This document shows, piece by piece, positions 1-32,222 of a stretch of 64,000 nucleotides of DNA; position 1 is the first letter of the stretch, and the number at the start of each line of letters is the position of its first letter. The notes under the pieces were generated by a model. The model ran no database searches. It had not been told where the DNA came from and worked only from the letters and a program-made list of their open reading frames with translations. The translations under genes were made by a program, and so were the position numbers. Source of the stretch: Aliikangiella marina (GTDB taxonomy: Bacteria > Pseudomonadota > Gammaproteobacteria > Enterobacterales > Kangiellaceae); assembly GCF_007004765.1 (NCBI RefSeq), contig NZ_VIKR01000001.1, positions 62,001 to 126,000 on the forward strand, in the 5' to 3' direction.

Positions 1-288
1 AGTATTCAGAGTTCTTCATTGGTAGGACGCGTTTCTTGATTGATGCATAATAGGTTTGTTTAAGTAGACTGCTTACTCTTGAAAAAGAGACGACATTTTA
101 ACAAAAATACCAATCGTAGGCATTCGTTAGTTTCTAGCCGATATAAAGAATATAGCTCAGTTTACTACCCAGGTTTGATGAGTGCTGCTTGAGTAGAATT
201 GTTCTCTATGATTTTTGGCTTGTTAGCGGGTAAATAAATTTCGTGAATTTACAATGTCATTGTGCCCAGTTTATCAAAGGAGTGGAAT
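1..288. other. Left-edge non-coding stretch
   Basis: No convincing gene is visible in these 288 bases. The only recognisable signal is the ribosome binding site AAAGGAG at 276-282 that serves the first gene. Confidence 0.5.
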
Positions 289-1638: not shown

Positions 1639-1646
1639 GGAATAAG

Positions 1647-4600
1647 ATGATGACTCCAGAGAAACTCGAAACTTTGATATTTAACAACGACAGGGAAGAT
1701 TTGTTCGTCTCTGCAGTATCACAACTTAGTGAAAAGGAAAGGAAAACACTCTCGACACACACGAATAAATTGAGAAATCAAATTACCTCTGGAAAAGCTA
1801 AAGCCGATGCCTCTAAGTTAGTTAAGCGATCTATTGAAAAACATTCTGCTAACTATTGGGGAACTCAAGCCTACTCAAACGTTCAGCTCGCAGTCTTGGC
1901 TTTTTGTCCATTATCGACAGTGAAGAGAGCAATTGATTTTTTTTCTTGGCGTGATAACTCGGCAGCGTTTCAAATCATATTAGATAGAAAACCAGCTTGG
2001 TTGGACGACTGGTTAGCTTTTAATCTTGATCAAGAGTTTGCTAATGTTCCTTTTGAATTAGTGCGTGGTTGGATGAAAGAGGGAATCTGTAATAAACCGA
2101 CGGTCGAGGGGTATACTCGCCAGTTCGCGTGGAATTTGATGGCGATAAATCATAGAAAAGATCAAGCACCTAACAAGCCTATTAGCGAACGGCTAATAAA
2201 TGAGCCTGATATGATAGACGACATTTGGCGTCTTTTTGAGGTCGAAAATCAAGCATTTAATACTGAAAGCTGGTTGACGAACAATGCGCCGGCGAACTAT
2301 GAAACCTGGCCCGAAGCTCTTACTAAACTCGCCGATAAGGGGATCATTGATCGCGCTAAACTACTAGACGCTTCGCTGCAAGGGTTGAGTAATGATTTAA
2401 AACAGAATCAATTATCTGGTTTCCATAAATTTCATGAGCAGTTAGCACCAACCAAAACTGAAAGATCTCAACGAAGAGCTGAATATATGGCGTTGCTGTT
2501 TCATAAAACAGGCCATGTATTAAAGTTCTCGCTAAAAATGTTAAGTCAGCTGGAACGTGACAAATCCTTGGAGTTAACAAAGTTTTTGATTGATGTCGCG
2601 GCTGTATTTGCGCACGAGGCGAAAGGAAATGCTATCACGGCTCTAAAGCTTATTGCACGCATCCTAAAAAAGGAAAAGGATCGAGTTCCTTGTGCTTTAC
2701 CTACCATGGCGGAAGCGCTGCGCCACCCTAATGCCGATGTACAGGCTTTAGCGATAGAATTGTTAACCACTTATAATGAACAAATGTCAGATGATTTTAA
2801 ATCTGAATTATTGATCACAGCGGACTTTGTCGCTGATGCGAACAAACCGTTGTTAATGTCTCTTTTGGGAAAAACAAATAATACATTAGGTACAATTAGT
2901 GAGTTAAACAAAGTCGATTCGAGTGTGCTTAGTCGACAATTAAGCGAACTCTCCGTCTTGCAGAGAGAAACATTAGGCTTAGGAAATATTGATTTAGAAG
3001 ATGACTTAAAAGGCGATATTCAGCCGTTGAAACCTGAAATAATTAAGGATAAGCATTTTCATATGCCTGATTTATTGGAGCCGATAACTGAGTTTGATGA
3101 ACTGATTCAAGCGCTTTCACATGCTGTTGAAATTATTGATGAGCCCGAAGATGTAGAGCGAATTCTTGATGGAATCAGTCGTCTATGTGGTGAATACCCG
3201 AGAGAATTTGATAAAAAAACTTCGCCTTTGTTAAAAAGAATAAATGATGGTGGGAGTTTTGAGACAATGAAAGGCCTTCTCGGTTTTGGGGGTGGGTTAC
3301 TCTTATCAATAACAGATTTAGTACTTACTTGGCTGACAGGTGAGTTCTATCAATCTAAAGATACAAGCTACTTTTCTCGGACGCCTTCGTTAGATCCGAT
3401 GATAGTTAAGGTGAATAATATAAAGCGAAGAGTCTATGCAAAAAAACCTCAACAACTCCTTTCTTTTCCAACTCATAAAGGTGGATGGATCGATCCGGTT
3501 ACTTGGGTAAATCGTTTGAATATAGCATTCGCGAATGATGCAGAGTTTGATAGAATGGACTTTAATCACTCAATGTTAAGATTGATGCCGTATGGCAGAA
3601 AAACGGCACTTCAGTTAGTAAGAAACTTACCTGAAAATATCGAAACAGTAGTCAAGTTTGTATTGGGCGAGAGTTTGACACCTGAATACAAGGATCGAAG
3701 AGATTATGATTTATGGATTAGTGCTTGTAGGTCATTAGATCCTAATCAAGATTGGTCAAGCTATTTATCGCCATTGAAGCTAAATGATAATTATCCAAAT
3801 AGTATTAAACCAGCATACTATGAGTGGAACGCTTTAACCAAGGTCGAGAGAGGTTATAAATTTCCAGGCTTGAAAGTGACTGCTTTTGCGCAAAGTCTTA
3901 TAGAACCTGATGCCGATATACAAAAAAATAAAACTGGGTTTCTGTCGAGTTTAGGCCGTAAACTCACTGGTGAAGTAACTGTTGATCGCAAATTAATACC
4001 GAGTGCCGGATTCAATGCTACTGAAAAGCTAAAGTATATCTGGTCTTGTGACTTAGGATGTTTATGGATTAATCAATGGTTGTCTACTCTATGGCCAACA
4101 AATCCAGATGCGTTTTACGTGTTGGCCGTTACACAACAAATCAGTAGAATCGATATGGATAGTAGTAGTTTTGAGCCTAATTTTGGGTTCTTAAGCGGCT
4201 TATTCGAACCAAATCGTGTTTGGTCAGAGCTTGCTCATTTAACACTATTCTTAGGGTTAGTTGGTAAGGACTCGGACTCACGAGCGCTGGCAGTAGACGC
4301 GTTTATAGAAGCGGTCGATAACGACTTGGCGTCACAAGAAATAATGGCAGGAATTTTAGTTAAATTAACTCAGGCTGGCTGGTTAAAGTTTAATAGGCTT
4401 GCCGAAGGATTAAAGCAAGTTACTCAAGTGTCGGCGACTCATCGATATTTTGTAAGTCGAATGCTACAGATTTGGTTGCCGCAGATTGATCTTAAATTAC
4501 GAAACATTCATTTAGTTCTAGAGGTATTGCTTGATGTTCAAACTGCGTTGAATCAGAAGGTTTCCACTCATGTGTCAGAGTCGCTCAAAGATTTGAAAGG

Positions 4601-4742
4601 TAAAACTAAAGCCGCTATCACTGCCAGTCGTATTGTTAAAGCCGGCAGTGAAGCGAGCGAAATAGTTCGTCAGATCAAATTAAACTTAATCGCGTCTAGG
4701 TTGGCATTAGTGGAGGTAACTGAAGCTCAAGTACGTTGTTAG
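1647..4742 (+). CDS. Large helical-repeat protein, DUF6493-like
   Basis: A 1031-residue protein without signal peptide or clear membrane segment. It is rich in leucine/alanine helices with HEAT-like character (for example around residues 300-420), suggesting an alpha-solenoid scaffold. Length, layout and position directly after a SWIM protein match my memory of the DUF6493 family; I cannot confirm this by alignment. The C-terminal 200 residues look like the most conserved part. No catalytic motif is visible. The start (ATG ATG) is eight bases after the SWIM stop, so translation may be coupled. Function unknown; a cytoplasmic complex with the SWIM protein is an inference. Confidence 0.65.
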   Translation: MMTPEKLETLIFNNDREDLFVSAVSQLSEKERKTLSTHTNKLRNQITSGKAKADASKLVKRSIEKHSANYWGTQAYSNVQLAVLAFCPLSTVKRAIDFFSWRDNSAAFQIILDRKPAWLDDWLAFNLDQEFANVPFELVRGWMKEGICNKPTVEGYTRQFAWNLMAINHRKDQAPNKPISERLINEPDMIDDIWRLFEVENQAFNTESWLTNNAPANYETWPEALTKLADKGIIDRAKLLDASLQGLSNDLKQNQLSGFHKFHEQLAPTKTERSQRRAEYMALLFHKTGHVLKFSLKMLSQLERDKSLELTKFLIDVAAVFAHEAKGNAITALKLIARILKKEKDRVPCALPTMAEALRHPNADVQALAIELLTTYNEQMSDDFKSELLITADFVADANKPLLMSLLGKTNNTLGTISELNKVDSSVLSRQLSELSVLQRETLGLGNIDLEDDLKGDIQPLKPEIIKDKHFHMPDLLEPITEFDELIQALSHAVEIIDEPEDVERILDGISRLCGEYPREFDKKTSPLLKRINDGGSFETMKGLLGFGGGLLLSITDLVLTWLTGEFYQSKDTSYFSRTPSLDPMIVKVNNIKRRVYAKKPQQLLSFPTHKGGWIDPVTWVNRLNIAFANDAEFDRMDFNHSMLRLMPYGRKTALQLVRNLPENIETVVKFVLGESLTPEYKDRRDYDLWISACRSLDPNQDWSSYLSPLKLNDNYPNSIKPAYYEWNALTKVERGYKFPGLKVTAFAQSLIEPDADIQKNKTGFLSSLGRKLTGEVTVDRKLIPSAGFNATEKLKYIWSCDLGCLWINQWLSTLWPTNPDAFYVLAVTQQISRIDMDSSSFEPNFGFLSGLFEPNRVWSELAHLTLFLGLVGKDSDSRALAVDAFIEAVDNDLASQEIMAGILVKLTQAGWLKFNRLAEGLKQVTQVSATHRYFVSRMLQIWLPQIDLKLRNIHLVLEVLLDVQTALNQKVSTHVSESLKDLKGKTKAAITASRIVKAGSEASEIVRQIKLNLIASRLALVEVTEAQVRC

Positions 4743-5157
4743 GTTTAGCAAACTGCCGAGTTTGCATTCGCTTTTCACCCGCAAAATTCATTGAACGTTT
4801 TTTCATTTCCAATGGTTAATTAAGTATCGCTATTTTTGTGCATGGTCGGCGCAGCTATTGACAAATGAAACGGATAGTTTTGCGCTAATGAATTCAATCA
4901 GTATCCGAGCTATTAAGGCAAGCTAGAGTAAGTTTCATACGCAAGTAATCCTTACTTTAGATTTTTAAATCGATCTCTCGTTCCTCTTCCTACTGGTTCT
5001 GTTGATACGCCTCAAGAATGAGTTGGTATAAAATCTGGCGTTAATTATCTCGTAACGAGGTTTTGTATATTCGCAAGCAAAAAAATGCTAATGTATAAAC
5101 GTTTCTTGAAGTTTATTATGGAAGTACTGACGTCAACAAAAGGATTTGTTTTTAGAC
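4743..5157. other. Intergenic region before the sigma-54 activator
   Basis: About 415 bases without a gene. It must hold the promoter of the activator downstream. A possible pair is TTGATA near 5002 and TATAAA near 5027, but the 19-base spacing is long and I would not rely on it. No strong terminator for the upstream pair is visible. Confidence 0.4.
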
Positions 5158-6789
5158 ATGGAACCGAATCAAACAACACTTGAAACCAAAATGCAGGTTG
5201 CGAAAAGCTCGCTGCATGATCAGCACGGACTCGCGATTAGTATTATTTATCACACCGATCTTTCTCGAATTGGTGAACGACATTGGTTATCACCTCTCTC
5301 TGGAATCGGTCAGACAGAGATTTCTCGCTTATCGCCACATTTTTATCCTCCCCAAGATGAGCATTCCATTAACAAAGGTCGCGCCCTCGAAGATCCCTAT
5401 ATCAGTCGCAAACCGGTAAAAATTTACTTCGAACATGGCGGCATTAAAGTTGAAAGTAATCAAGAAGTATTCATAAATGGCGATAAAAATACAGGTAGTC
5501 TGATCAGTATAGGACAAGGCGTACTAATAAATATCGCTAACCGCGTTTTGTTGTTGATTCACACCCAAAAGCTAACGAAACATTCTAATAATCTTGCTCA
5601 CGATTTTCTTGGATTCAGCGACAACGTGACTGAAGTAAGAGGACAAATACAAAAGGTGGCAAGTCTTGATGTGCCCGTGTTGATTCGTGGTGAGTCTGGA
5701 ACAGGGAAAGAACTCATCGCGAAAGCAATCGCTCGCAATAGTCATCGAAATCAAATGCCTTTTGTGGTAGTTAATATGGCTGCAATCACAAGTTCGCTGG
5801 CGCCCGCCGAACTTTTTGGTACTGCGAAAGGTGCTTTTACGGGCGCGACTTCGAGCCGTAAAGGTTATTTTGAGATAGCAAATAATGGTACGCTATTCCT
5901 CGACGAGATAGGTGAAGCCGCAGAAGAAATACAAACCACACTTTTGAGAGCGCTCGAAACGGGCGAAATTCAAGCTGTCGGAAGTTCGTCGACCCGTAAA
6001 GTGAACGTCAGATTGATCTCAGCAACTGATGCAAACTTAGAAAGTAAGATTGAAAACGAATCATTTAAGAATCCGCTGTTACAACGAATTGCTGGCTATG
6101 AAATTATGCTCGCCCCGCTGCGTGAGAGAAAGGTAGATATCGGCCTACTCATGGCGCGATTCTTAACCCAAGAGCTCGACAATATTAATGAAAAGATTAA
6201 AAGTGAAACACCAGCGGAGGTCGAGAATTTGTGCCGTATTTTTGAAACTTTCGCATTGTATCATTGGCCTGGTAATGTGAGGGAACTCAAAAATTTAACC
6301 CGGCAGTTAGTTATCGATAATCGCGGTGAGGATTCGATTGTTCTCTCATCCAAATTGCGTAGTAAGTTACAAGTTGGTCGAATTCAGCGAGATAGAAAAC
6401 GAGGTTTGGCTGACTCTATTAAAGACCTGATTAACGAAAACTCAGCTTCGATTCAAAAGCATTTAACTAGACGAAAACCAAATGCCGTCAGCAATGATGA
6501 ACTACTCACAGCATTTCAAGAATGCGAATGGGATATTCAGGCGACAGCAAGACGTTTACGTATCTCACGAGCTTCTCTCTATAACCGAATTGATAAACAT
6601 CCTGAACTTAGACGGGCAACAGATATTACTCAGGATGAATTAAAACAATCTTATGTTAATGCACAAGGTGATCTTGATCAGATGACGCAAGCACTTAGAG
6701 TGTCTAAAAGTGCAATAAAGCGTCGTCTTAACGAAATACCTGATTTAAAGTTAATTAAATTAACCCAAAGTGATAATGCTCGTTTTTAA
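5158..6789 (+). CDS. FHA-like sigma-54-dependent transcriptional activator
   Basis: A 543-residue bacterial enhancer-binding protein. Residues 30-135 form an FHA-like sensor (IGE, then ISR-type motifs), a fold that binds phosphothreonine. The central AAA+ domain is intact: Walker A GESGTGKE (178-185), the sigma-54 contact loop GAFTGA (225-230), Walker B LFLDE (246-250) and the WPGNVREL motif. The C-terminus carries a Fis-type helix-turn-helix (RRLRISRASLYNRI) and a second similar unit (ALRVSKSAIKRRL), an unusual doubling. Start: ATG 5158; a TTG twelve bases upstream sits too close to AGGA. A matching -24/-12 promoter with twin palindromes lies before the reb genes 2.3 kb downstream, so this is the likely R-body activator. 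An FHA sensor plus a kinase at the far end of the cluster suggests phosphorylation control (inference). Confidence 0.9.
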   Translation: MEPNQTTLETKMQVAKSSLHDQHGLAISIIYHTDLSRIGERHWLSPLSGIGQTEISRLSPHFYPPQDEHSINKGRALEDPYISRKPVKIYFEHGGIKVESNQEVFINGDKNTGSLISIGQGVLINIANRVLLLIHTQKLTKHSNNLAHDFLGFSDNVTEVRGQIQKVASLDVPVLIRGESGTGKELIAKAIARNSHRNQMPFVVVNMAAITSSLAPAELFGTAKGAFTGATSSRKGYFEIANNGTLFLDEIGEAAEEIQTTLLRALETGEIQAVGSSSTRKVNVRLISATDANLESKIENESFKNPLLQRIAGYEIMLAPLRERKVDIGLLMARFLTQELDNINEKIKSETPAEVENLCRIFETFALYHWPGNVRELKNLTRQLVIDNRGEDSIVLSSKLRSKLQVGRIQRDRKRGLADSIKDLINENSASIQKHLTRRKPNAVSNDELLTAFQECEWDIQATARRLRISRASLYNRIDKHPELRRATDITQDELKQSYVNAQGDLDQMTQALRVSKSAIKRRLNEIPDLKLIKLTQSDNARF

Positions 6790-6922
6790 TCGCGATACGA
6801 AAACCAAGCTAGTGTAAACGAAACGCGTTAAGATTTATAACAATCAACCCTGTTGATATTGTCCGGTATAAACGAATGACGACAATCAATACTCTTACAG
6901 GTACAATGTTTATTTCGCTTAA

Positions 6923-7420
6923 TTAATAATAACGACTTGGTGGAATAACTGGGTATACACCGCCATCAAATCGCATTGCGACTGTACCACTAATGCGACC
7001 ATAAGCGCTGGCTGTAGCGTAAATGTTTTGTATCAACTTGTCGAATGATTCGGCAAAATCAAGTGTTGTTCTTTCGCTCTCTGTACAGGCATTAATGTAT
7101 ATAACTCCCGAATATTCACTTGGTAGCAAAGGGGTTAGTTTATCAAATAGCTGCTTTGGATTGAGTAAAATAGCCGAATCCTTTTGACAATCTCCTATCA
7201 CCTCTCCATTTAAACATTCCTCAAAGTACACATTCTGAGAAGCAATAAAAATGTTCTCACTCATTTGAACTTTAGGGGGAGGGGGGGACTGGGAAAGTAT
7301 ATTATAGGTAAATCCATACTCCATCGGTTTATAATCGAATGAGTATTGAGCGAGTGATGCGAGTGAATAGTTTCCCTGGTTAAAGCGTTCAGAGCCGGGT
7401 TTACAAACAAGTAAGATCAT
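6923..7420 (-). CDS. Unrecognised 165-residue protein
   Basis: I do not recognise this protein. It begins directly with a hydrophobic beta-strand (MILLVCKPGS), has no signal peptide, contains a PPPP linker near residue 46, and has a core reading YSGVIYINAC followed by a SFDKLIQNIY helix. The strand-Cys-helix order faintly recalls caspase-like folds, but no catalytic His-Cys pair can be assigned. It is preceded by AAGGA six bases before the ATG. It is the last of three minus-strand genes lying between the sigma-54 activator and the reb operon, downstream of the EndoU-like gene, so it may belong to a toxin/immunity group. Confidence 0.6.
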   Translation of the reverse strand: MILLVCKPGSERFNQGNYSLASLAQYSFDYKPMEYGFTYNILSQSPPPPKVQMSENIFIASQNVYFEECLNGEVIGDCQKDSAILLNPKQLFDKLTPLLPSEYSGVIYINACTESERTTLDFAESFDKLIQNIYATASAYGRISGTVAMRFDGGVYPVIPPSRYY

Positions 7421-7527
7421 AGATGGTCCTTAATGAATAGTTTGTTAAATGAAACTTCTGGTGTAATAGATTTTGCTTTTCTACGGTACGATTGTTTATC
7501 GACTGTATTGAAGCGTTTTAAAATCAG

Positions 7528-7830
7528 CTAGGTGTTCTTTATCAAGCGAATCCAATTGACAAGCTCATATTCGAATTGTTGTAGAGAGAGTGTAATTTGT
7601 GTCTCATCATATTCATCAAAAAGCGGTGAGATTTTTACATTGTCTTCGCTCATATAGAGCTCATAAGCATTCATCGACATTCTCCAATGACTTTGCTTTT
7701 TTTGCTTGATTAATCGTAATTGCTCATAGATGATATTTGCCCACTCTTCTTGCGTTTGAATATCCATAACAAAAAATGCTCTTAGGATCTTTCCTTCTTC
7801 GAACGAGAGGTTTCTTATATTCTTATCCAT
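7528..7830 (-). CDS. Small cytoplasmic protein, candidate EndoU immunity protein
   Basis: A 100-residue, acidic, mostly helical protein without signal peptide, in the pattern expected of contact-toxin immunity proteins. It follows the EndoU-like lipoprotein gene on the same strand after about 55 bases. I see no family signature, and its ribosome binding site is weak. The immunity role is inferred only from size, charge and position. It could instead be an unrelated small regulator. Confidence 0.5.
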   Translation of the reverse strand: MDKNIRNLSFEEGKILRAFFVMDIQTQEEWANIIYEQLRLIKQKKQSHWRMSMNAYELYMSEDNVKISPLFDEYDETQITLSLQQFEYELVNWIRLIKNT

Positions 7831-7885
7831 GCGTATACCGATACTGGTTTTAATAACCTCTGACTTAACAGAGGTTAGAATTATA

Positions 7886-8470
7886 TTACCGAACAGGAAA
7901 ACCTGTATTGACGTTGCCGTTAGCGGTTAAGCCCATAGCAACGGTAAGTCGACTCTCGTCATCACCTTCGCAATAAGGGCCTTGGGTTGGTAGTACCGGG
8001 TCGGGACGACTGTAGCCGCATACCGCCCAGTTTGGCGCCGCAGCTGGACATGCGATTTGATTGACCGCAGCATAGGAAATCGAGTTATCCACTTCTTCCT
8101 GGGTACAGCTGTCTGGAAACATTGTTGAAAACTTCTGTGCGGTCGCTCCATGGATATTAAGCGTGACGATTCCGCCATAAACGCCTGCTGCGTTGGGAGC
8201 TTGTGTAATGTTGAAATTGGTTACTGTCGCTGGGTTATCTCCGTCAGGTCTCGAGTGAAAGCCTTTAGCATTCCCATTTCGAATTTCACCACAAAAAACA
8301 TGGTCATTGTTGACCTGCGGTGGATTAGGAAAGTTCGTCCATCCTATCCCAGGACAAGGGCCGACAGCTAAAACACTATTGGATTGGTCTCCCGATGGAG
8401 AACGATCGTATGTTGTGCAACCCAAAATCAAGATGGCGGATAGACAGCTGATTAAAATATGTTTAAACAT
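7886..8470 (-). CDS. Lipoprotein with EndoU-type nuclease domain
   Basis: A 194-residue exported lipoprotein: signal peptide with lipobox ending LILGC (Cys18), then an EndoU-like nuclease domain. Signature elements are H57-V-F-C-GE, GFHSRP with H72, the K113-F-STMFP segment, EEVDNSI, and a closing TGFP. Bacterial EndoU domains (Pfam EndoU_bacteria) are RNases common as tips of CDI and other polymorphic toxins; H57, H72 and K113 would be the catalytic triad by analogy. It is unusual to find the domain alone behind a lipobox with six further cysteines, which implies an oxidised periplasmic or surface form. GAAGGAG precedes the ATG. It lies divergent from the reb operon across its control region. 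A toxin role is inferred; it could be a housekeeping exported nuclease. Confidence 0.65.
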   Translation of the reverse strand: MFKHILISCLSAILILGCTTYDRSPSGDQSNSVLAVGPCPGIGWTNFPNPPQVNNDHVFCGEIRNGNAKGFHSRPDGDNPATVTNFNITQAPNAAGVYGGIVTLNIHGATAQKFSTMFPDSCTQEEVDNSISYAAVNQIACPAAAPNWAVCGYSRPDPVLPTQGPYCEGDDESRLTVAMGLTANGNVNTGFPVR

Positions 8471-8982
8471 AGTATGCTCCTTCTTTTAAGTTTAAGAATT
8501 ATGTTGGTGTTTATTTGTGCTTAACAAATTAACAAGAGAGAGTCCTTTCAAAATTTTCCAACTTAAAAATCATTCATCATTGAAAAGTATTGTGTGCTCA
8601 ATCATTAGAGTGAAATTTGTAAAGTCAGATCGCTCTCAGCAAGAAACGAACCAAAACAAAAAAATATCAATGAATAACAACTAAGAGTAATTAAATTTAA
8701 AAACTAAACGATAAAATTAATGAGTTTTTTATCTTGTGGGGCAACGTACATTTAAGCCAGCCGTAAATGAATACTCAATAGCATTCTGAGCTTGGTCGCA
8801 TGCACTTCGATACGTTAGTAGCAAGTTATTCAGATTACGCTAATGGTCTCAGCAAGCTATTGAGAAAATAGAAACCAACCCAATTTTGTATTTCTTCTTT
8901 TGCAGAAACGATAAGTGGATTGATCCTTGCTTATCGCTCGACACAACCAAATATCTATTAATCGATATAAAAATTCATACGG

Positions 8983-9013
8983 TGACATGTCAGAAAAAAG
9001 TGGTGACATGTCA
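8983..9013. promoter_or_regulatory. Twin palindromic enhancer (UAS) for sigma-54 activator
   Basis: Two copies of the perfect 10-base palindrome TGACATGTCA lie at 8983-8992 and 9004-9013, each preceded by GG. The centres are 21 bases apart, two helical turns, so dimers would sit on the same DNA face. They lie about 100-125 bases upstream of the predicted start, the usual distance for enhancer-binding proteins. The Fis-type regulator encoded at 5158-6789 is the obvious candidate to bind. Confidence 0.65.
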
Positions 9014-9084
9014 AAAAATGAATTTTCCTAGAATTCACCCTGGTCTTTGTCGAAAACACCCAAGAAGAAGCAGTTTTTTTAACC

Positions 9085-9099
9085 TGGCACGTAAGATGC
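9085..9099 (+). promoter_or_regulatory. Sigma-54 (-24/-12) promoter of the reb operon
   Basis: TGGCAC at 9085-9090, then G and four bases, then ATGC at 9096-9099. This matches the consensus TGGCACG-N4-TTGC with a single mismatch and exact spacing. Transcription would start near 9111, about 30 bases before the first reb ATG. Confidence 0.75.
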
Positions 9100-9140
9100 A
9101 CTAGCTCGATAAAGGACAATTAAGACACTGGAGAATAAAA

Positions 9141-9503
9141 ATGGCCGATGAGTTACCACAAGATATCGTGCAATCTATTGCGATTTCTAATGCTAAATCT
9201 ATTGGTGAGCAACCTGCGATACTTGCCAATCTCGCTTTAGCTGGCGAAATATTTAATTTGAATATGCAGCAGCAAGCTCAGATTGCACAACAACAGGCAA
9301 TGAACCAGATAGCGGTTGCAACCGCAGCGACCACTATTCCTCATCAAAATGCCGGTAATACCGATGGTAGTACTGACGCTTTAGCGAAAATCTTTGAGCT
9401 TATGCAAGATGTACTCAAGCATAAAGATAGTACTAACGACAATAGCGATGAAAAATCAGATATCGATAACTCAACTAAACCTAGCGAAAACAAAAACAAA
9501 TAG
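9141..9503 (+). CDS. RebB-family R-body protein, divergent first copy
   Basis: A 120-residue member of the RebB ('killing trait', PF11747-like) family, which forms the coiled ribbons of R-bodies. It shares the N-terminal block with its neighbours (ELPQDIVQSIAISN, then SIGEQPAILANLA) and the QQQAMNQ motif, but lacks their conserved C-terminal EARSAVDIL...ELAQTIADL segment. That end is replaced by a hydrophilic tail rich in Asp, Asn and Lys. It is the first gene after the sigma-54 promoter, with CTGGAG before its ATG. It may be a nucleating or terminal subunit (inference). The gap to the next gene (138 bases) is larger than elsewhere in the operon. Confidence 0.7.
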   Translation: MADELPQDIVQSIAISNAKSIGEQPAILANLALAGEIFNLNMQQQAQIAQQQAMNQIAVATAATTIPHQNAGNTDGSTDALAKIFELMQDVLKHKDSTNDNSDEKSDIDNSTKPSENKNK

Positions 9504-9641
9504 TTTGTTTTTTAAAAGGAATTATTAAGCGGATTGGTTTGAACAATTACCTAACTAATCAGCAACAACAAATAGTGAACTATTTTTCTGTTTGCCAGTG
9601 AAATAGCTCGTTATAACCAACCACTAACAGAGGAAAAAACT

Positions 9642-9959
9642 ATGGCTGATAAATTACCAGAAGATATTATACAAAGTGTAGCAATCGGAAATTTGAAAAG
9701 TATTTCAGAGCAACCTGCGATGCTTTCAAATTTGGCTTATTCAAATACTGTGAACAACACTAATTTGAGTCAGCAAAATGCAGTTTCATTCCAGCAAGCG
9801 ATGAATGATCTAACACTTTCTGTTGTCGCTAAAGCTTCAAATACGATATCTAACTTAACACCCTTGGAAGCTCGTTCTGCTGTCGATATTCTTAGCAACA
9901 ATGAGCTAGCACAAACGATAGCTGATCTAAAATCAACAGTTCAAGCTTTCGCCAACTAA
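9642..9959 (+). CDS. RebB-family R-body structural protein
   Basis: A 105-residue RebB-family protein. The core EQPAMLSNLAYSN and NLSQQNAVSFQQAMNDL fits the family pattern of PAM..NLY, then NAV..QQ. The C-terminus carries LTPLEARSAVDIL and ELAQTIADLK, shared with the next two copies. There are no cysteines, no signal peptide and no membrane span, as expected for a cytoplasmic self-assembling subunit. Its ATG follows AGAGGAA. It is nearly identical to the following gene, indicating recent tandem duplication. Confidence 0.8.
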   Translation: MADKLPEDIIQSVAIGNLKSISEQPAMLSNLAYSNTVNNTNLSQQNAVSFQQAMNDLTLSVVAKASNTISNLTPLEARSAVDILSNNELAQTIADLKSTVQAFAN

Positions 9960-9980
9960 ATTAATTAAAGGATTAAACAA

Positions 9981-10292
9981 ATGGCACTTCCAGAAGATAT
10001 TATTCAAAGTGTAGCGATTGGCAACCTAAAAAGTATTTCAGAGCAACCTGCGATGCTTTCTAATTTAGCTTATTCAAACACAGTAACCAATACGAATTTG
10101 TCACAACAAAATGCAGTTTCATTTCAGCAATCAATGAACGATCTAACGCTTGCGGTTACCGCTAAAGCGACTAATACGGTCTCTAACCTAACTCCACAAG
10201 AAGCGCGTTCTGCTGTGGATATTCTAAGCAACAATGAGTTAGCACAAACGATCGCCGATCTAAAAGCAACACTTAAAGCATTTAACAGTTAA
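9981..10292 (+). CDS. RebB-family R-body structural protein
   Basis: A 103-residue tandem paralogue of the preceding gene, differing at only some 15-20 positions, with the same EQPAMLSNLAYSN core and the same C-terminal ELAQTIADLK. AAAGGA precedes the ATG and only 21 bases separate it from the upstream stop. R-bodies in Caedibacter and Azorhizobium are built from several Reb proteins; two near-identical copies here may be the main ribbon subunits. Confidence 0.8.
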   Translation: MALPEDIIQSVAIGNLKSISEQPAMLSNLAYSNTVTNTNLSQQNAVSFQQSMNDLTLAVTAKATNTVSNLTPQEARSAVDILSNNELAQTIADLKATLKAFNS

Positions 10293-10308
10293 TTAAGGAG
10301 AATCACAA

Positions 10309-10806
10309 ATGGCAGATTTACCTGATGAAATTATCGAAGGAGTGGCCATCGGTAATTTAAAAAGTATATCTGAGCAGCCAGCTATGTTGTCTAATTTGGC
10401 TTATTCAAACTCAGTCACAAACACCAACCTATCGCAACAAAATAGTGTAAGTAATCAGCAGTCGATGAATGATTTAGTACTCTCTAGTACGGCAAAAGCG
10501 AGTAATACTATTTCAAATCTGACACCGCTAGAAGCGCGTTCAGCGGTAGATATCTTAACCAATAATGAACTTGCGCAAACTATTGCGGATTTAAAGAGTA
10601 CGCTTCAGGCATTTTCTGATACAACCGATCCATCGACGGGCGGTAGTAGTGGAACCAAACGAAACCCGATAGCAATCGATTTTGATCCGCCGATTGACTC
10701 TAAAAGCGTCAAGGTTGTTAAGGATGCTGGGTATAACTTAGTGCAGGTGCCGGATCCGAAAGATGCATCTAAGACTGTGGAGATACTTTTAGTACCAGCA
10801 AAGTAA
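10309..10806 (+). CDS. RebB-family R-body protein with C-terminal extension
   Basis: A 165-residue protein. Residues 1-105 repeat the RebB-like unit of its neighbours. After a Gly/Ser linker (GGSSG) comes a unique tail of about 55 residues with alternating charged and beta-prone stretches ending LLVPAK. The tail could decorate the ribbon, cap it, or dock a cargo or membrane (inference). AAGGAG precedes the ATG. A terminator-like hairpin begins twelve bases after the stop, so genes upstream of this point may be expressed more strongly than those beyond. Confidence 0.75.
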   Translation: MADLPDEIIEGVAIGNLKSISEQPAMLSNLAYSNSVTNTNLSQQNSVSNQQSMNDLVLSSTAKASNTISNLTPLEARSAVDILTNNELAQTIADLKSTLQAFSDTTDPSTGGSSGTKRNPIAIDFDPPIDSKSVKVVKDAGYNLVQVPDPKDASKTVEILLVPAK

Positions 10807-10817
10807 TAACACAGATT

Positions 10818-10844
10818 AATGGCTCCGGCGAGGAGCCATTCTTT
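10818..10844 (+). terminator. Intra-operon terminator/attenuator hairpin
   Basis: A perfect nine-base stem: AATGGCTCC (10818-10826), loop GGCGA, GGAGCCATT (10832-10840), followed by CTTT. It sits between the fourth and fifth reb genes. The tail is short of T, so partial read-through is likely, which would set subunit stoichiometry. It could also act as an RNA-processing or stability hairpin. Confidence 0.55.
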
Positions 10845-10866
10845 AACACTGAATGGAGAAATTACC

Positions 10867-11223
10867 GTGGAAGTCGAACGTATCAAAATTGGAGAGCCGG
10901 ACAATCCGCCGAACAAGCCCGAGGACGGTAGTGGTAGTATCAATATCTTAAAAACGATCGCTGAACAATCGTCGATGCTATCTAACCTCGCTATGTCTAA
11001 TCTGATCAATAACAATAATCGATCTCAGCAGAACACATTGCAGAACCAGAGCTCAATCAATCAAGTGTTTATTTCAACCACATCAAACTCGGTTAATTTA
11101 GTTAATAACCTCAGTCCGTCTGAAGCAAGGTGTGCGACCGATGTAACGAGCAATAATGAAGTGGCACAATCGATTGCTGACCTCAGTGCAGCACTTAAAG
11201 TTAAACAAAAGGATAATAAATAG
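10867..11223 (+). CDS. RebB-family R-body protein, divergent last copy
   Basis: A 118-residue RebB-family protein. It keeps the EQSSMLSNLAMSN core, the QQNTLQNQSS motif and a C-terminal LSPSEARCATDV...EVAQSIADL, but its N-terminus is a distinct proline-rich leader (DNPPNKPEDGSG). It contains one cysteine, unlike the central copies. I place the start at GTG 10867, preceded by GGAGAA. An in-frame ATG at 10819 lies inside the hairpin and has no ribosome binding site. It is probably a minor subunit. Confidence 0.7.
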   Translation: MEVERIKIGEPDNPPNKPEDGSGSINILKTIAEQSSMLSNLAMSNLINNNNRSQQNTLQNQSSINQVFISTTSNSVNLVNNLSPSEARCATDVTSNNEVAQSIADLSAALKVKQKDNK

Positions 11224-11231
11224 GCAATGTT

Positions 11232-11507
11232 ATGGATAATACAAAGTCAGCAGAAAGCGCATATGATTTAACGTTACAGATTAGCGAAACGATCTCTCAA
11301 TTAGGCGTCAGCGGCGATCCCGTTGTATTACAAGATAGGTTAACCGAATTGAATCGACAACAGATAGAAAACGTTAAAAAAACGGTTTTGCCAAGAATCC
11401 GCAATGGTGCGACAAAAGATAGATCACCGCAACAGTCGCCTGTCGAGGATGAGTCGCAAGTCTTTAAGGATCAAACTAACCTTTTAAAACGAATCTTTAA
11501 CCGGTAA
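11232..11507 (+). CDS. Small protein in reb operon, unknown
   Basis: A 91-residue hydrophilic protein starting eight bases after the last reb stop. It has a helical N-terminal half with GVSGDPVVLQDRL and a basic C-terminus (LLKRIFNR). It is not obviously a Reb unit. Tight spacing places it in the same transcript, so it may be an accessory or assembly factor for R-bodies. Confidence 0.55.
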   Translation: MDNTKSAESAYDLTLQISETISQLGVSGDPVVLQDRLTELNRQQIENVKKTVLPRIRNGATKDRSPQQSPVEDESQVFKDQTNLLKRIFNR

Positions 11508-11519
11508 TGAGGCAAGCAA

Positions 11520-11726
11520 ATGGGTCCAACAGAAGCGCTGGCACAACCCGCTTATGAATTAACCAGTAAAATGTTAAATGATAAGCAACTTCCTTTGTCT
11601 ATACCGTTAATAGCGATATCTCTTTCCGCGTATGGTATTGCACTAGCGCAATATCAACAAACGGTTATTGAGTCAAAACTAGCTTTTGCCACGGTAGACA
11701 AAGGGCAAATAGCACCGCCAACTTAA
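11520..11726 (+). CDS. Small hydrophobic protein in reb operon, unknown
   Basis: A 68-residue protein with a central hydrophobic stretch (IPLIAISLSAYGIALAQY) long enough for one membrane helix or a buried amphipathic helix. It follows the previous gene by twelve bases. It is unrecognised; its position suggests a role in R-body assembly, membrane contact or release. After the stop, an imperfect hairpin at 11750-11781 (AATCAGCT / AGCTGATT) could end or weaken the transcript, though its loop is large. Confidence 0.5.
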   Translation: MGPTEALAQPAYELTSKMLNDKQLPLSIPLIAISLSAYGIALAQYQQTVIESKLAFATVDKGQIAPPT

Positions 11727-11805
11727 TCTTTGCGAATCGCTTTAGGTTTAATCAGCTGCTCACGCAGGTCTAAAGCTGATTCAGTCTTGAGTTAATTCTA
11801 TTCAA

Positions 11806-12507
11806 ATGATGAATAATTTATCTTTCCCGAAAGTATCCCCCTTTACAGAGATTATCGCGTTACCCAATCCTGTCTTTATTCCGGCGTTTCTCGATGCCTT
11901 TACTTTCTCAGGGCAAAAATACACCGGAACCGTAGTTTTGGTGACTGGACCTTTAAAGCAAGTTAAGCAACTTTCGGTAACAACCCAAAGTTCTTGGATT
12001 CAAGTGACCGAGTTAAAGTGCAAGGTGAAGTATCTCAAAGCTTTTATTATTCATGTTATAAAAGGCAATAACTACGGTCCAACTCGCTCGGCTGAATTAG
12101 TACTGTCTGTGGGTAGCCAACAAGTGTCATCGGTTCCAGTTGTTCAAGCGGCAGGTGAATTGGTTAGCGAGACGATGACTAATTTAGTCAAAGCACCGAT
12201 GGTAATGGAAGCAGAAATCTTAACGAAGTTCATCGCGAGTGAGGTCAAGAAGCTTCCTCCACCTATCAAAGCTATCGCAATACCAATTATTAATGGACTC
12301 TATGTCGTTGCGGCGTTGCTGCTAATAAGTATACGCTCAGCTTTCTTTTTAGTCCCGAACCCAACGGACTGGAAACGATTTGTTGATCCGTCTAAACCGG
12401 AAAACCAACTGTTATTAATCAGCCCTCTACCAACCTTTACCGACTATATTATCACCCAACAGAGTATTCGATTAATGGAATATTTTGATCAGCAAGTACT
12501 CAGTTAG
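11806..12507 (+). CDS. BACON-like domain membrane protein
   Basis: A 233-residue protein without signal peptide. Residues about 35-120 resemble a BACON/Ig-like beta-sandwich: a WIQV strand, a GNN turn, R-x-A-x-L strands and a closing VPVVQA. A hydrophobic segment near residues 160-185 (AIAIPIINGLYVVAALLLI) is a probable membrane span, followed by about 45 residues. It lies between the reb genes and the kinase on the same strand, without an obvious ribosome binding site at its ATG ATG. The role is unknown; a membrane partner of the kinase or R-body is an inference. Confidence 0.55.
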   Translation: MMNNLSFPKVSPFTEIIALPNPVFIPAFLDAFTFSGQKYTGTVVLVTGPLKQVKQLSVTTQSSWIQVTELKCKVKYLKAFIIHVIKGNNYGPTRSAELVLSVGSQQVSSVPVVQAAGELVSETMTNLVKAPMVMEAEILTKFIASEVKKLPPPIKAIAIPIINGLYVVAALLLISIRSAFFLVPNPTDWKRFVDPSKPENQLLLISPLPTFTDYIITQQSIRLMEYFDQQVLS

Positions 12508-12574
12508 CGAGCGTTTCCAATTCATAGTTAAACTGTGTACCATGGAATTAAATCATGAACTTTAAATTTCAAAG

Positions 12575-15169
12575 ATGCTCGAGGCGAAAGTTTCTAAATT
12601 AGGTCCCTACCAAATACAAAGACAACTTGGCAGTGGCGGTATGGGTGAAGTCTTTTTAGCACGAGATCCACGATTAAATCGACAAGTCGCGATTAAATGT
12701 CTGAAGAATGACTCTCCTCAAGAACTTAAGCAGCGCCTCTCGACAGAAGCTGAAATCCTCGCTCAACTTGATAGTGAAAATATTGTTAAAATTTTTGATG
12801 TCTTCGAACAAGATGAGCGGCTTTATCTCGTCATGGAATATGTTGATGGCAAAACGTTAACTGAATGGTTAAAACAGAACCAACCAGACCTGCAAAAAAT
12901 TTTAGATATTTCACAACAAATATTAAAAGCACTCCAAGTTGCCCATCACGCCGGTATTATCCATCGTGATCTAAAAGCAGATAATATTTTAGTTGCTCGC
13001 GGCGGGCAGATTAAACTGACTGATTTCGGTATTGCGAAGTCGCTCAACAGTGTGTATACGGACTATACAATGGCTGGCCGAGTTACGGGCAGTTATGCAG
13101 CGATGTCTCCTGAACAGGCCCTGAGAAAAGCGCTTGATCAGCGCACTGACTTTTTTTCCTTTGGGCTATTGCTCTATCGAATGCTTACGGCACAACATGC
13201 ATTTGGTGACGGCGCTAGTCCTGCGTTAGTTGAGGGAACTAGTGCTGTCGGAGTTGAAGGGACTAGTGCTGTCGGAGTTGAAGGGACTAGTGCTGTCATA
13301 GTTGAAGACTCTAACCCTATCAAGATCATTGACCGCATTATCCATGATAAACCGACACCGATAACTCGTTATCGACCGGATTGTCCGATTAAATTGCGAA
13401 AGCTAATCCTTCAGTTACTGGAGAAGTCACCTGCAAGAAGACCACCAAATGCACAAGCAATAATGGATGCTTTAGCGGATTGCACAACAACAGAAACCAA
13501 CGACTATGGGCGCGGCTTAGCTGAACAGACAACCAAAGAGTGGCGCAAACCTCAATCCATGGGGCATGCTGGTCGGCTTATTGTTAGCGGTGCTTTTATC
13601 TTTTTAATCGTTATTACCTATGTTGTCTTTAGGCCGTCAGCGAAGCTGCCTGCGTTATTGATTGAGCCTATTCAAATGCAGAGTTCAACACTCGAAAAGC
13701 AAGAGCTAGCCTTACTCAATATGGCGATACACACCTCGCTGAACGAATTAGCCATAGACAGTAATCGCTATGAGGTTGTTGAAAATCGTGATTGGTTACC
13801 GCTTGATGCGCAGTCAGATCGTGCCTATGCCGTAGATGCTGACCAAGTATTGAAGACCATGGCACATTGTAGTGAATACAATTGCGAATTAACCTTTAAA
13901 CTCATCTCAACTCAAAATAGTCGCCTTATTCAAACATCGACGATTAATCTTCTATCAGATAATTTGTTGGCTTTTAAACAAAATCTGATGCAGTCAACCA
14001 ATGAGATACTTCCCACAGCCAGTAAATCGCGAAACGCCAATTTGATCAGCAGTCAAATCTATCAGCAATTTTTGGAGATAGAACTCAAAGTAAAGCAGAG
14101 CGGCACCTCCGCTGCTTTGTTGGCGGAAGCGAAAATGCTTGTCGAGCAAGCTCCGTTTTTTGTACCTGGATACCTGAGTTATAGTCGGCTATGTCTCAAC
14201 TACTTTTGGGACACCTTGAATAAGACTCACCTTGGGGAGTGTGAGGCCTCATTAAACCAAGCATTAAAGCTCGATGAAAACCACTACCAGTTAGCCATTG
14301 CGTATTTTGAGTTGATGCTCGCCAAGGGCGATTTTGTTGAAGCGAAAACTTGGTTGTCAAAATTACAAAAAAAATATAGTGGCAATAGCCGAGTATTGGT
14401 TGCTGAAGCGGAATGGTACTTTGAGCAAGGAGAGACTAATAAAGCGCTATCGCTAATTGATAAAGCCATCGCGAGCCGAGAAAATTGGATGGTATTGCTG
14501 AAGAAAGCCCGTTTCCTTTGGCAAACTAACGAGCTACCCGCTGCACTTGAAACCCTGAAACGATTGTTAGACCGTGTACCGGGTAATTTTACGGCCTTAA
14601 GAATGAAAGCCACTATTCATAGTTATTTAGGTGAATTCTCACAAGCGGCAGCTGATTTTCAATTATTACTCGATCACAATCAAATGAATTCCGCTTTACT
14701 GAATGATTTAGGCACTAACCTTATTTATAGTGGACAGTATTCGAAAGCAATAGCAGTGCTTGAGCAAGCTTATGAATTAGATAAGAACGACCCTTATGTC
14801 AGTTTAAACTTAGCCGATAGCCTCTCACTGAATAATCAGCCCGAGCGAGCGAAGTTTTGGTATGAGAAAACGCTAGAGCTGAGCAAAAATTCTCGCCAGG
14901 ATTTTCGGCTGCATGCAATCAATGCGCAAGCGCATGCGCAATTAAATAATATCGCCGAAGCAATCCATGCAATCCAACAGTTTCAGAAACTAAATAGCAA
15001 TGAGGCTGAATCTGCTTATTATTCCGCTCTCGTGTACACCTTAATTGGCGATAAGCATTCTGCGAAGGTCAATCGAGAGCGGGCGATTGAGCTTGGTATC
15101 AGCCCCAGCTGGTTTCAACTTTCTTGGTTTGAAACCAGCAGTGTCGATACCGATAATTCTACTGAATAG
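12575..15169 (+). CDS. Membrane-anchored Ser/Thr protein kinase with TPRs
   Basis: An 864-residue PknB-type kinase. Kinase domain (residues 10-300): glycine loop GSGGMGEV, ATP lysine K41, catalytic H130-RDLKADN, DFG at 150-152 and the MSPEQ motif, all intact. A membrane helix at about 334-352 splits it from a C-terminal half with a periplasmic-type domain and about eight TPR units (residues 480-850). Between kinase subdomains IX and X an eight-residue unit (VEGTSAVG) repeats three times, encoded by a 24-base tandem repeat. It closes the reb cluster on the same strand. An FHA-type sensor in the sigma-54 activator could recognise threonines it phosphorylates. Its last bases overlap the convergent gene by eleven. 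Confidence 0.9.
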   Translation: MLEAKVSKLGPYQIQRQLGSGGMGEVFLARDPRLNRQVAIKCLKNDSPQELKQRLSTEAEILAQLDSENIVKIFDVFEQDERLYLVMEYVDGKTLTEWLKQNQPDLQKILDISQQILKALQVAHHAGIIHRDLKADNILVARGGQIKLTDFGIAKSLNSVYTDYTMAGRVTGSYAAMSPEQALRKALDQRTDFFSFGLLLYRMLTAQHAFGDGASPALVEGTSAVGVEGTSAVGVEGTSAVIVEDSNPIKIIDRIIHDKPTPITRYRPDCPIKLRKLILQLLEKSPARRPPNAQAIMDALADCTTTETNDYGRGLAEQTTKEWRKPQSMGHAGRLIVSGAFIFLIVITYVVFRPSAKLPALLIEPIQMQSSTLEKQELALLNMAIHTSLNELAIDSNRYEVVENRDWLPLDAQSDRAYAVDADQVLKTMAHCSEYNCELTFKLISTQNSRLIQTSTINLLSDNLLAFKQNLMQSTNEILPTASKSRNANLISSQIYQQFLEIELKVKQSGTSAALLAEAKMLVEQAPFFVPGYLSYSRLCLNYFWDTLNKTHLGECEASLNQALKLDENHYQLAIAYFELMLAKGDFVEAKTWLSKLQKKYSGNSRVLVAEAEWYFEQGETNKALSLIDKAIASRENWMVLLKKARFLWQTNELPAALETLKRLLDRVPGNFTALRMKATIHSYLGEFSQAAADFQLLLDHNQMNSALLNDLGTNLIYSGQYSKAIAVLEQAYELDKNDPYVSLNLADSLSLNNQPERAKFWYEKTLELSKNSRQDFRLHAINAQAHAQLNNIAEAIHAIQQFQKLNSNEAESAYYSALVYTLIGDKHSAKVNRERAIELGISPSWFQLSWFETSSVDTDNSTE
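13229..13300 (+). repeat. 24-base coding tandem repeat in kinase gene
   Basis: Three consecutive 24-base units starting GTTGAGGGAACTAGTGCTGT, with a degraded partial copy just upstream (near 13210-13228). The unit is a multiple of three, so copy-number change would lengthen a surface loop by eight residues without frameshift. Units 1-3 are nearly identical, which indicates recent expansion. Confidence 0.85.
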
Positions 15170-15647
15170 AGCGGGGTATTTTAAAAATAGGGTCCCAGTA
15201 AAACTCATAACCTTTGTACTGAAACAGTATCCGGTAGTCCCAACCTTTTTCACCCGTATCAACGTTATTGGCATAGGCAGTTAAAGTACGTCCGAGTATG
15301 ATGATCGGTTTTTTGGGATCAAACACAATCTTACTCGGATCGGTGGCACCAACCCCGCGCATAAAAATATCTCCATCTGCATAGGCCTGAGAATCAAAAC
15401 TAATTAAGCGGATTTCAACCATTTCGTCAGGATTTAATGGGGTCTCAAGGTTATATTGTCCTTCCAATTCTGGTTTAGGCAAATACTTGGGGCGCTCACT
15501 ATTTGGAATATCATCGACCATTCTAACCGGTATTTCTGTTGCAACCTCTGTAAGATTAATCGAGACGTCTCGAGGTGGATTGTTCTCTCGTAAATAGCGA
15601 TCGATAGGATTGGTTTGTATTGCGCAGAGTATAGTTACTTTTGACAT
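15159..15647 (-). CDS. Unrecognised 162-residue protein
   Basis: A beta-rich protein with no signal peptide, starting MSKVTILCAIQTN. It contains a proline-rich middle (KYLPKPELEG) and two strand-turn segments (KPIIILGRTLTAYAN, YRILFQYKGYEFYWDP). No family is recognised. It converges on the kinase gene and overlaps its 3' end by eleven bases. It may belong to the R-body neighbourhood, but nothing in the sequence proves this. Confidence 0.55.
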   Translation of the reverse strand: MSKVTILCAIQTNPIDRYLRENNPPRDVSINLTEVATEIPVRMVDDIPNSERPKYLPKPELEGQYNLETPLNPDEMVEIRLISFDSQAYADGDIFMRGVGATDPSKIVFDPKKPIIILGRTLTAYANNVDTGEKGWDYRILFQYKGYEFYWDPIFKIPRSIQ

Positions 15648-32208: not shown

Positions 32209-32222
32209 GGGAGGGCTTTAAA

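Follow-up and report, generated by a model that had tools for sequence, protein, structure and literature searches.

A probable R-body locus of a divergent Reb clade beside a sigma-54 activator gene in Aliikangiella marina

Background

Loci encoding R-bodies (reb loci) fall into two synteny groups (PMC3583457; like the other papers cited here, used from the accessible parts of its text). In the canonical loci of groups 1 and 2 (Caedibacter, Pseudomonas aeruginosa, Vibrio and Marinomonas), short Rebs with the motifs KxxxD/E and QQ are encoded in tandem and regulator genes lie nearby, described as a sigma factor plus a cyclic-nucleotide-binding regulator (PMC3583457) or as a FecI-type sigma factor plus RcgA (PMC8322103). 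A survey of Rebs, which are predicted to be alpha-helical, gives as signature motifs QITD (primary Rebs), KxxxD/E near a proline, NAV and QQ(Q), and calls cysteine rare (PMC13430693). The four Rebs of Acidovorax avenae were found too divergent for inclusion in the Reb family, and R-bodies had been seen in that species in 1983 (PMC3583457).

Two questions about R-bodies are at stake: which toxin goes along with them, and what switches their production on. In P. aeruginosa, host ribosomes are cleaved by a signal-peptide ribonuclease, Ribocin, an effect that the R-body cluster promotes; delivery of Ribocin by R-bodies was put forward as a proposal, with evidence that another route is possible (PMC13189344). 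Among the literature matches listed, no title dealt with sigma-54 or kinase control of reb or with EndoU and R-bodies, which is weak evidence, subscription journals being mostly uncovered; PMC3377617, in its accessible parts, has RebB, sigma-54 and R-body together, sigma-54 there concerning a flagellar regulator.

Here we describe a locus of Aliikangiella marina that shares with the canonical groups the tandem short Rebs, the KxxxD/E and QQ motifs and the neighbouring regulators, but whose Rebs lack QITD and whose partner genes found no convincing match in three canonical loci.

Results

The window, i.e., the whole analysed stretch of 64,000 nt (contig NZ_VIKR01000001.1, positions 62,001 to 126,000), belongs to a 5.3-Mb genome. 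At 5146-15169 it carries a sigma-54 activator gene, three minus-strand genes, five Reb-like genes, two small genes, a gene for a BACON-like protein and a kinase gene (Table 1). The initial annotation had proposed an array of activator, reb genes and kinase, with two small genes and a BACON-like membrane protein before the kinase: the array and these three genes (11232-11726 and 11806-12507) are present, but the three minus-strand genes between activator and reb had been overlooked. The BACON-like protein has one hydrophobic stretch (residues 153-186) and scored 17.6 bits against PF13004 (cut-off 25). A Stv-domain identity for the 165-aa protein was considered and rejected, as was a recent gain of the locus read from a GC shift (37-46% per kb across the first 30 kb, without a clear step). 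Directly upstream of the activator (262-4742) lie a gene that by eye is SWIM-type, although Pfam gave no match at 1e-5, and a gene for a DUF6493/DUF7824/DUF7825 protein, and type VI secretion-like genes were noted some 3-10 kb ahead of the window start (L055, 53-7139; TssM-, TagF-, phosphatase- and kinase-like, by eye).

Table 1. Genes and putative regulatory elements of the locus (window positions)
Feature	Position	Strand	Evidence or remark
Sigma-54-dependent activator	5146 (TTG) or 5158 (ATG)..6789	+	PF00158 194.5 bits; AAA+ domain; HTH-type C-terminal part
165-aa protein, no family	6923..7420	-	Family searches without match
100-aa UPF0231-like protein, candidate immunity partner of the EndoU gene (putative role)	7528..7830	-	PF06062 24.4 bits, cut-off 25
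EndoU-family ribonuclease	7886..8470	-	PF14436 68.8 bits, cut-off 25.3; N-terminal lipoprotein-type signal by eye, hydrophobic 1-20
Two copies of palindrome TGACATGTCA, candidate activator binding sites	8983..9013		21 bp start to start
Sigma-54 -24/-12 promoter-like element TGGCACGTAAGATGCA	9085..9100	+	1 mismatch to TGGCACN5TTGCW
reb0, 120 aa, counterpart of the cassette's first reb	9141..9503	+	Best match is the first reb in 20/20 loci
reb1, 105 aa	9642..9959	+	RebB 18.4 bits; second reb best match in 19/20 loci, third in L026
reb2, 103 aa	9981..10292	+	RebB 20.5 bits; all-helical model, mean pLDDT 71
reb3, 165 aa, Reb domain and C-terminal extension	10309..10806	+	RebB 16.7 bits
reb4, 134 aa, divergent Reb	10819..11223	+	52% identity to reb2
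91-aa protein, partner family C1	11232..11507	+	E 2e-5 to profile of 19 C1 proteins built without it
68-aa protein, one hydrophobic stretch, partner family C3	11520..11726	+	E 7e-9 to profile of 17 C3 proteins built without it
233-aa BACON-like membrane protein, partner family C2	11806..12507	+	E 1e-29 to profile of 18 C2 proteins built without it
Membrane Ser/Thr kinase with C-terminal TPRs	12575..15169	+	PF00069 172.8 bits

The Reb-like genes stand in tandem at 9141-11223, five where three or more were sought. They had been annotated as five RebB-family genes; all five are Reb-like, but Pfam RebB (PF11747) matched only three of the proteins, all under the curated cut-off of 24 bits; for reb0 and reb4 the Pfam search listed no RebB row even at an E limit of 1, but both aligned with the other window Rebs (39% and 52% identity to reb2, respectively). 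A PF11747 search of the own genome at E 0.001 returned no match, the actual RebB match being weaker than that setting, and two relatives in the genome of L026 passed the cut-off (28.9 and 28.6 bits). From the alignment of the whole clade, 16 of 18 members (three of them window proteins) matched PF11747 at E up to 0.05 (best 2e-6). In the reverse direction, the clade profile ranked seven Reb proteins top (5e-7 to 4e-4, with the next row at 0.18) among the 49 called proteins of three canonical loci, E-values that hold for a set of that size only. Profile homology between Rebs of the window type and canonical Rebs was thus detected in both directions. Profile-profile comparison by hhalign with five canonical Rebs, both profiles being shallow, aligned 23 columns at 4.5% probability, and the best PDB relative of the Reb alignment stood at E 0.34.

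Among the signature motifs, QQ was found in five, KxxxE-x-P in four and NAV in two of the five window proteins, and QITD in none. QITD was missing also from all 53 relatives bearing K...[DE]Q (a set that takes in at least two proteins of the partner family C4, see below), and 21 of the 53 contained cysteine, most of them, by coordinates, first rebs. The structure model of reb2 was all helical (helices 5-68, 72-83 and 85-102; pTM 0.28). By profile, the relationship of the five window proteins to canonical Rebs is reciprocal, though distant, and the five tandem genes belong to a divergent Reb clade. The two-way homology supports the initial annotation of an R-body locus, whose product would be R-bodies.

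A scan of the genomes of 84,980 species yielded 126 pattern hits and, from these, 21 loci of this reb type, found in Xanthomonadales (including Luteibacter, Lysobacter, Rhodanobacter and Dyella), Comamonadaceae (Paracidovorax and Acidovorax), an unclassified proteobacterial MAG and Verrucomicrobiota; reb2 was up to 79% identical to proteins of Luteibacter, Lysobacter and Rhodanobacter. Genes in all loci were called by a custom six-frame caller, which was rerun with pooled codon tables for ten loci. The usual order, seen in most of the 21, was four Rebs (about 105, 104, 166 and 115 aa) followed by the partner genes C4, C1, C3 and C2, with an extra small gene (D12) among the Rebs in the Verrucomicrobiota loci. 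By final gene calls C1 was present in 19, C3 in 17 and C2 in 18 of the 21 loci, and C3 and C2 are also present in L015, though absent from its final calls. Judged by the profiles of Table 1, the three post-reb genes of the window are relatives of the genes that adjoin this reb type in Xanthomonadales, Paracidovorax and Verrucomicrobiota; C4 had no counterpart in the window cassette by profile search. Two Dyella loci (L018 and L023) have two called Rebs and no partner genes and are perhaps remnants.

Best matches were compared over 20 loci (L015 left out). Besides reb0, which matched the first reb throughout, all window Rebs had the second reb as best match (the third in L026): reb4 in 19 of 20 loci at 42-55% identity, and reb3 likewise in 19 of 20, yet its length fits the third reb (about 166 aa). 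As reb1-reb4 share one best-matching reb, they may be local duplicates, and one-to-one gene order between the window and the other cassettes was demonstrated for the first reb only.

When profiles of C1, C2, C3, C4 and two further neighbour families (D4 and D5, see below) were run against the 49 proteins of the three canonical loci, the best values were 0.005 for D5 (a 340-aa protein), 0.019 for C4 and 0.051 for C1; this does not amount to a convincing partner match by profile. The cassette gene sizes recall the group 1 partners HP1.1-HP1.4 (PMC3583457), whose presence in the three canonical loci was judged from gene sizes alone, and this likeness together with the D5 match leaves a very distant link to group 1 possible. 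The accessible parts of the surveys PMC3583457 and PMC13430693 hold no account of C1, C3 or C2, the latter stating that non-Reb neighbours were left out; group 4 of PMC13430693 may be this Reb clade.

This reb type was absent from all 60 close relatives of the source genome, and samples of the class (369 genomes), order (394) and phylum (398) yielded no strong match beyond the own genome, with two weak ones (9.4e-4 and 7.3e-4). Its occurrence in distant taxa and absence from close relatives suggest that the patchy spread arose by horizontal transfer. Reb searches gave no match in plasmids and 130 pattern hits in viral contigs, none of them confirmed, and seven proteins compared with PHROGs found no match at 0.01; a phage origin of the cassette was rejected on the results for viral contigs and PHROGs. 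A tree of joined Reb pairs, from which L015 (incomplete gene calls) and L026 (extra reb copy) were left out, placed the window with Pseudomonadota, apart from Verrucomicrobiota (100/100), on a long branch whose exact place among Pseudomonadota is not settled, long rows being flagged as unsure.

The genomes of Paracidovorax oryzae, which we take to be close kin of A. avenae, and of P. cattleyae, once A. avenae subsp. cattleyae, each encode four Rebs of the window type and gave no RebB match at E 0.05. In P. oryzae, P. cattleyae, P. konjaci, P. anthurii and P. valerianellae, both Rebs and partners are of the window type, but these five loci differ in having D4 divergently upstream (5/5) and D5 downstream (4/5) and no match to the activator or the kinase. 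As kin of A. avenae carry this cassette and no other RebB match, we infer that the window locus goes with the Acidovorax type. It is probably a third kind of R-body locus, that of the close kin of A. avenae, whose own cluster (PMC3583457) would belong to the same Reb clade, judging by these Paracidovorax loci.

The activator claimed for the locus is a sigma-54 activator: its AAA+ sigma-54 interaction domain carries GESGTGKE at 182 and GAFTGA at 229. The first reb codon follows 41 bp after the end of the -24/-12 element TGGCACGTAAGATGCA. At one mismatch the pattern occurs twice in the window against 2.0 expected by chance, so that the element is telling through its position alone. On an ad hoc sigma-54 score, with weights chosen by us, the 300 bp upstream of the first reb reached 14 of 15, a value attained by 2 of 5000 mononucleotide shuffles. 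All 21 other first rebs scored below the window, the nearest being L017 (13.0, P 0.01) and L010 (12.5, P 0.05), at other positions, and a comparable promoter signal was not evident at most of these loci. Farther upstream, two 23-nt inverted arms each end inwards in a 10-bp copy of TGACATGTCA, the two copies lying 72-102 bp before the -24/-12 element. Activator sites are commonly placed at such a distance upstream of a -24/-12 promoter. No second pair of TGACATGTCA spaced 6-14 bases was found genome-wide, in a count of pairs only and with a pattern derived from the site itself. Moreover, the first 150 residues of the activator were found in one of 99 genomes, its own, and were absent from 98 relatives. 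The earlier claim of dedicated sigma-54 control of reb is thus supported by the cis elements and by this restricted N-terminal part, the support for control itself being cis evidence only.

Other cassettes of this type adjoin other putative regulator genes. D4, a 250-aa gene (a regulator by eye; no family match, a single PDB row at 0.75), occurs in 11 of the 21 loci, divergent and upstream in ten and downstream in L007. A LuxR-type gene lies upstream of reb in L020 (by eye) and in L022 and L024, whose genes cluster with it; for the remaining seven loci no regulator was named. With different regulator genes beside different cassettes, the switch seems to differ from lineage to lineage.

The membrane Ser/Thr kinase with TPRs is present as annotated. 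It starts 67 bp after C2 on the same strand, is intact by motifs (HRD and DFG), and has a hydrophobic stretch at 329-356 and C-terminal TPRs. For the 21 related loci, the search for neighbours of reb covered at most 10 kb to either side (with shorter flanks in L013, L019, L020, L024 and L026; about 407 kb in total). The kinase had no match at E 1e-3 in any of them; at E up to 1 its TPR region found a match in L017 (0.33). The activator matched in one locus, L007, about 8 kb from reb, with an additional match at E up to 1 in L023 (0.41); clustering had grouped it with response-regulator-like genes from seven loci (D6, a family of mixed content), and blastp at E 0.01 returned L007 alone. In the canonical loci we found one weak activator match (L084, 27%, 5e-12) 6-7 kb away and, at 17033-17644 of L086, a kinase match (36%, 4e-29) about 7 kb from a canonical reb gene, both too far to count as conserved. 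Over the 21 related and three canonical loci, the pair of flanking activator and kinase is therefore not conserved with reb. In the own genome, the activator query met 14 matches and the kinase query 13 (own gene included in each case), and with so many genes of both types a chance neighbourhood is possible. The region C2:8000-26000 of this genome was considered as a second activator-kinase pair and rejected, being by eye a kinase-phosphatase-FHA set and an NtrC-like pair.

The activator had also been called FHA-like, a label that is unproven. The whole protein gave no FHA-family row at E up to 1 in Pfam. Its residues 1-150 matched Yop-YscD_cpl only, weakly (E 0.095), a family that we take to have the FHA fold; against PDB their best match (E 0.91) was not FHA, and their structure model (mean pLDDT 43) was too low in confidence for use. 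A stretch GR...DPYISR stands in the N-terminal part.

The EndoU gene is divergent from reb and followed by the UPF0231-like gene; the EndoU protein found no PDB relative to E 0.1. A similar arrangement occurs beside one other cassette of the 21: in L015, an EndoU gene (58.2 bits; product 40% identical to that of the window) and a small gene follow C2, the small protein being 22% identical to the UPF0231-like protein (E 3e-5). EndoU was found in 9 of 229 genomes of the class (own included, one match each), so that chance is an unlikely explanation for its recurrence at another of the 21 loci, although the association was noticed after the fact and the background rate comes from the window's class, not from the group of L015. 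Like Ribocin, whose effect an R-body gene cluster promotes, the EndoU protein is a predicted ribonuclease with a putative signal peptide, with gene linkage to the reb genes as the only tie seen in the window; Ribocin is not described as an EndoU in the accessible parts of PMC13189344.

Discussion

We consider it likely that the window holds an R-body locus which looks complete, belongs to a divergent Reb clade of the Acidovorax type and has its own sigma-54 switch, known here from genes alone. Five Reb subunits would form the ribbon, and C1, C3 and C2, as conserved partners of this type, would probably serve assembly or membrane contact. The adjacent sigma-54 activator is predicted to bind the two palindromes and to open the -24/-12 promoter before the first reb gene; the downstream kinase may feed a signal into this switch. 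The secreted EndoU-type RNase with its partner is the likeliest co-acting effector. Reb homology, cassette homology, the promoter-like elements and the EndoU domain were computed, and R-body formation, activator binding, kinase input and EndoU use are proposed on that basis. If so, the readable sigma-54 promoter and the nearby secreted RNase would make both the toxin and the switch question testable at one locus. Moreover, the partner set, which spans Gamma- and Betaproteobacteria and Verrucomicrobiota and is not convincingly matched in canonical loci, names genes for knock-out.

It is also conceivable, though rather unlikely, that only the reb cassette is meaningful, the activator, EndoU genes and kinase being chance neighbours in a genome rich in such genes and reb having another driver. 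The scarcity of activator and kinase at the 21 related loci (one distant match and none, respectively), their abundance in the own genome and, by eye, a further kinase gene among the type VI secretion-like genes 3-10 kb before the window all fit such an assembly by chance. However, a sigma-54-like promoter and a palindrome pair lie directly upstream of reb, in a region scored above 21 other first rebs; neither the activator's first 150 residues nor reb occur in the relatives searched (98 and 60, respectively); and the kinase follows the cassette closely on the same strand. A still smaller probability attaches to the idea that the five proteins form a non-ribbon polymer and are kin to Rebs by distant ancestry only. 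Their sub-threshold RebB scores, the missing QITD and the lack of a convincing partner match in canonical loci would suit a non-ribbon polymer, but the examined kin of A. avenae carry this cassette and no other RebB match, and R-bodies were reported in A. avenae itself with very divergent Rebs (PMC3583457), for which reason we hold a non-ribbon product to be very unlikely.

The initial annotation had gone further on the kinase, proposing phosphorylation-gated production: the kinase would phosphorylate a target that the activator recognises through an FHA domain, and would so gate transcription of reb. Myxobacterial FHA-bearing sigma-54 activators with Ser/Thr kinases offer a candidate kinase-to-activator logic of this kind; they differ in that an FHA fold is not established for the window activator, and no link between them and R-bodies is known to us. 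The adjacency of the genes, the GR...DPYISR stretch and the weak match to a family taken to have the FHA fold speak for such gating, but no FHA match was accepted, the model was of low confidence and the pair is not conserved (kinase at none of the 21 loci, activator at one, about 8 kb off). The claim was thus not borne out, and a kinase-FHA circuit, for which the genes offer a weak case, is doubtful. Our preferred reading accordingly keeps the sigma-54 switch and leaves the kinase as a possible input.

For the effector, the related loci permit a wider reading, the most interesting and the least proven of all: this reb type may be a modular delivery cassette, in which a fixed core (Rebs plus three or four partners) is joined to an exchangeable switch and an exchangeable effector gene. 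We put it forward tentatively, as a view that could well be wrong. Candidate effectors within this reading would be: i) the EndoU RNase with its immunity-like partner, here and in L015; ii) a glycoside-hydrolase-like protein, seen near C2 in L016 (Rv2525c-like, 57 bits), with a similar one by eye in L025; iii) a nuclease/phosphatase-like protein, encoded between C3 and C2 in L022 and matching Exo_endo_phos (43.3 bits); and iv) the 360-aa enzyme-like family D5, found in 10 of the 21 loci, in nine of them downstream of C2. The invariant E66, K162 and C211 of D5 recall carbon-nitrogen hydrolases (by eye), and its searches gave no family match, no PDB relative to E 1 and no PHROGs match at 0.01. 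Near C2, L020 has a near-threshold Stv match and L026 an 851-aa protein without family, both counted among these possible effectors, and L006 and L021 are among the loci with no such enzyme-like gene directly after C2 on the same strand. If true, the modular reading would name candidate toxins for R-body killing.

The 851-aa protein of L026 (Puniceicoccaceae, 12679-15234), with no Pfam, NCBIfam or PHROGs match at the limits used, is encoded 42 bp after C2. In the window itself, at 28258-33440, a gene for an RHS-repeat protein of 1316 aa (PF05593, 86 bits) precedes a 405-aa ORF for which no family matched at 1e-5, the two representing a possible polymorphic toxin and its partner.
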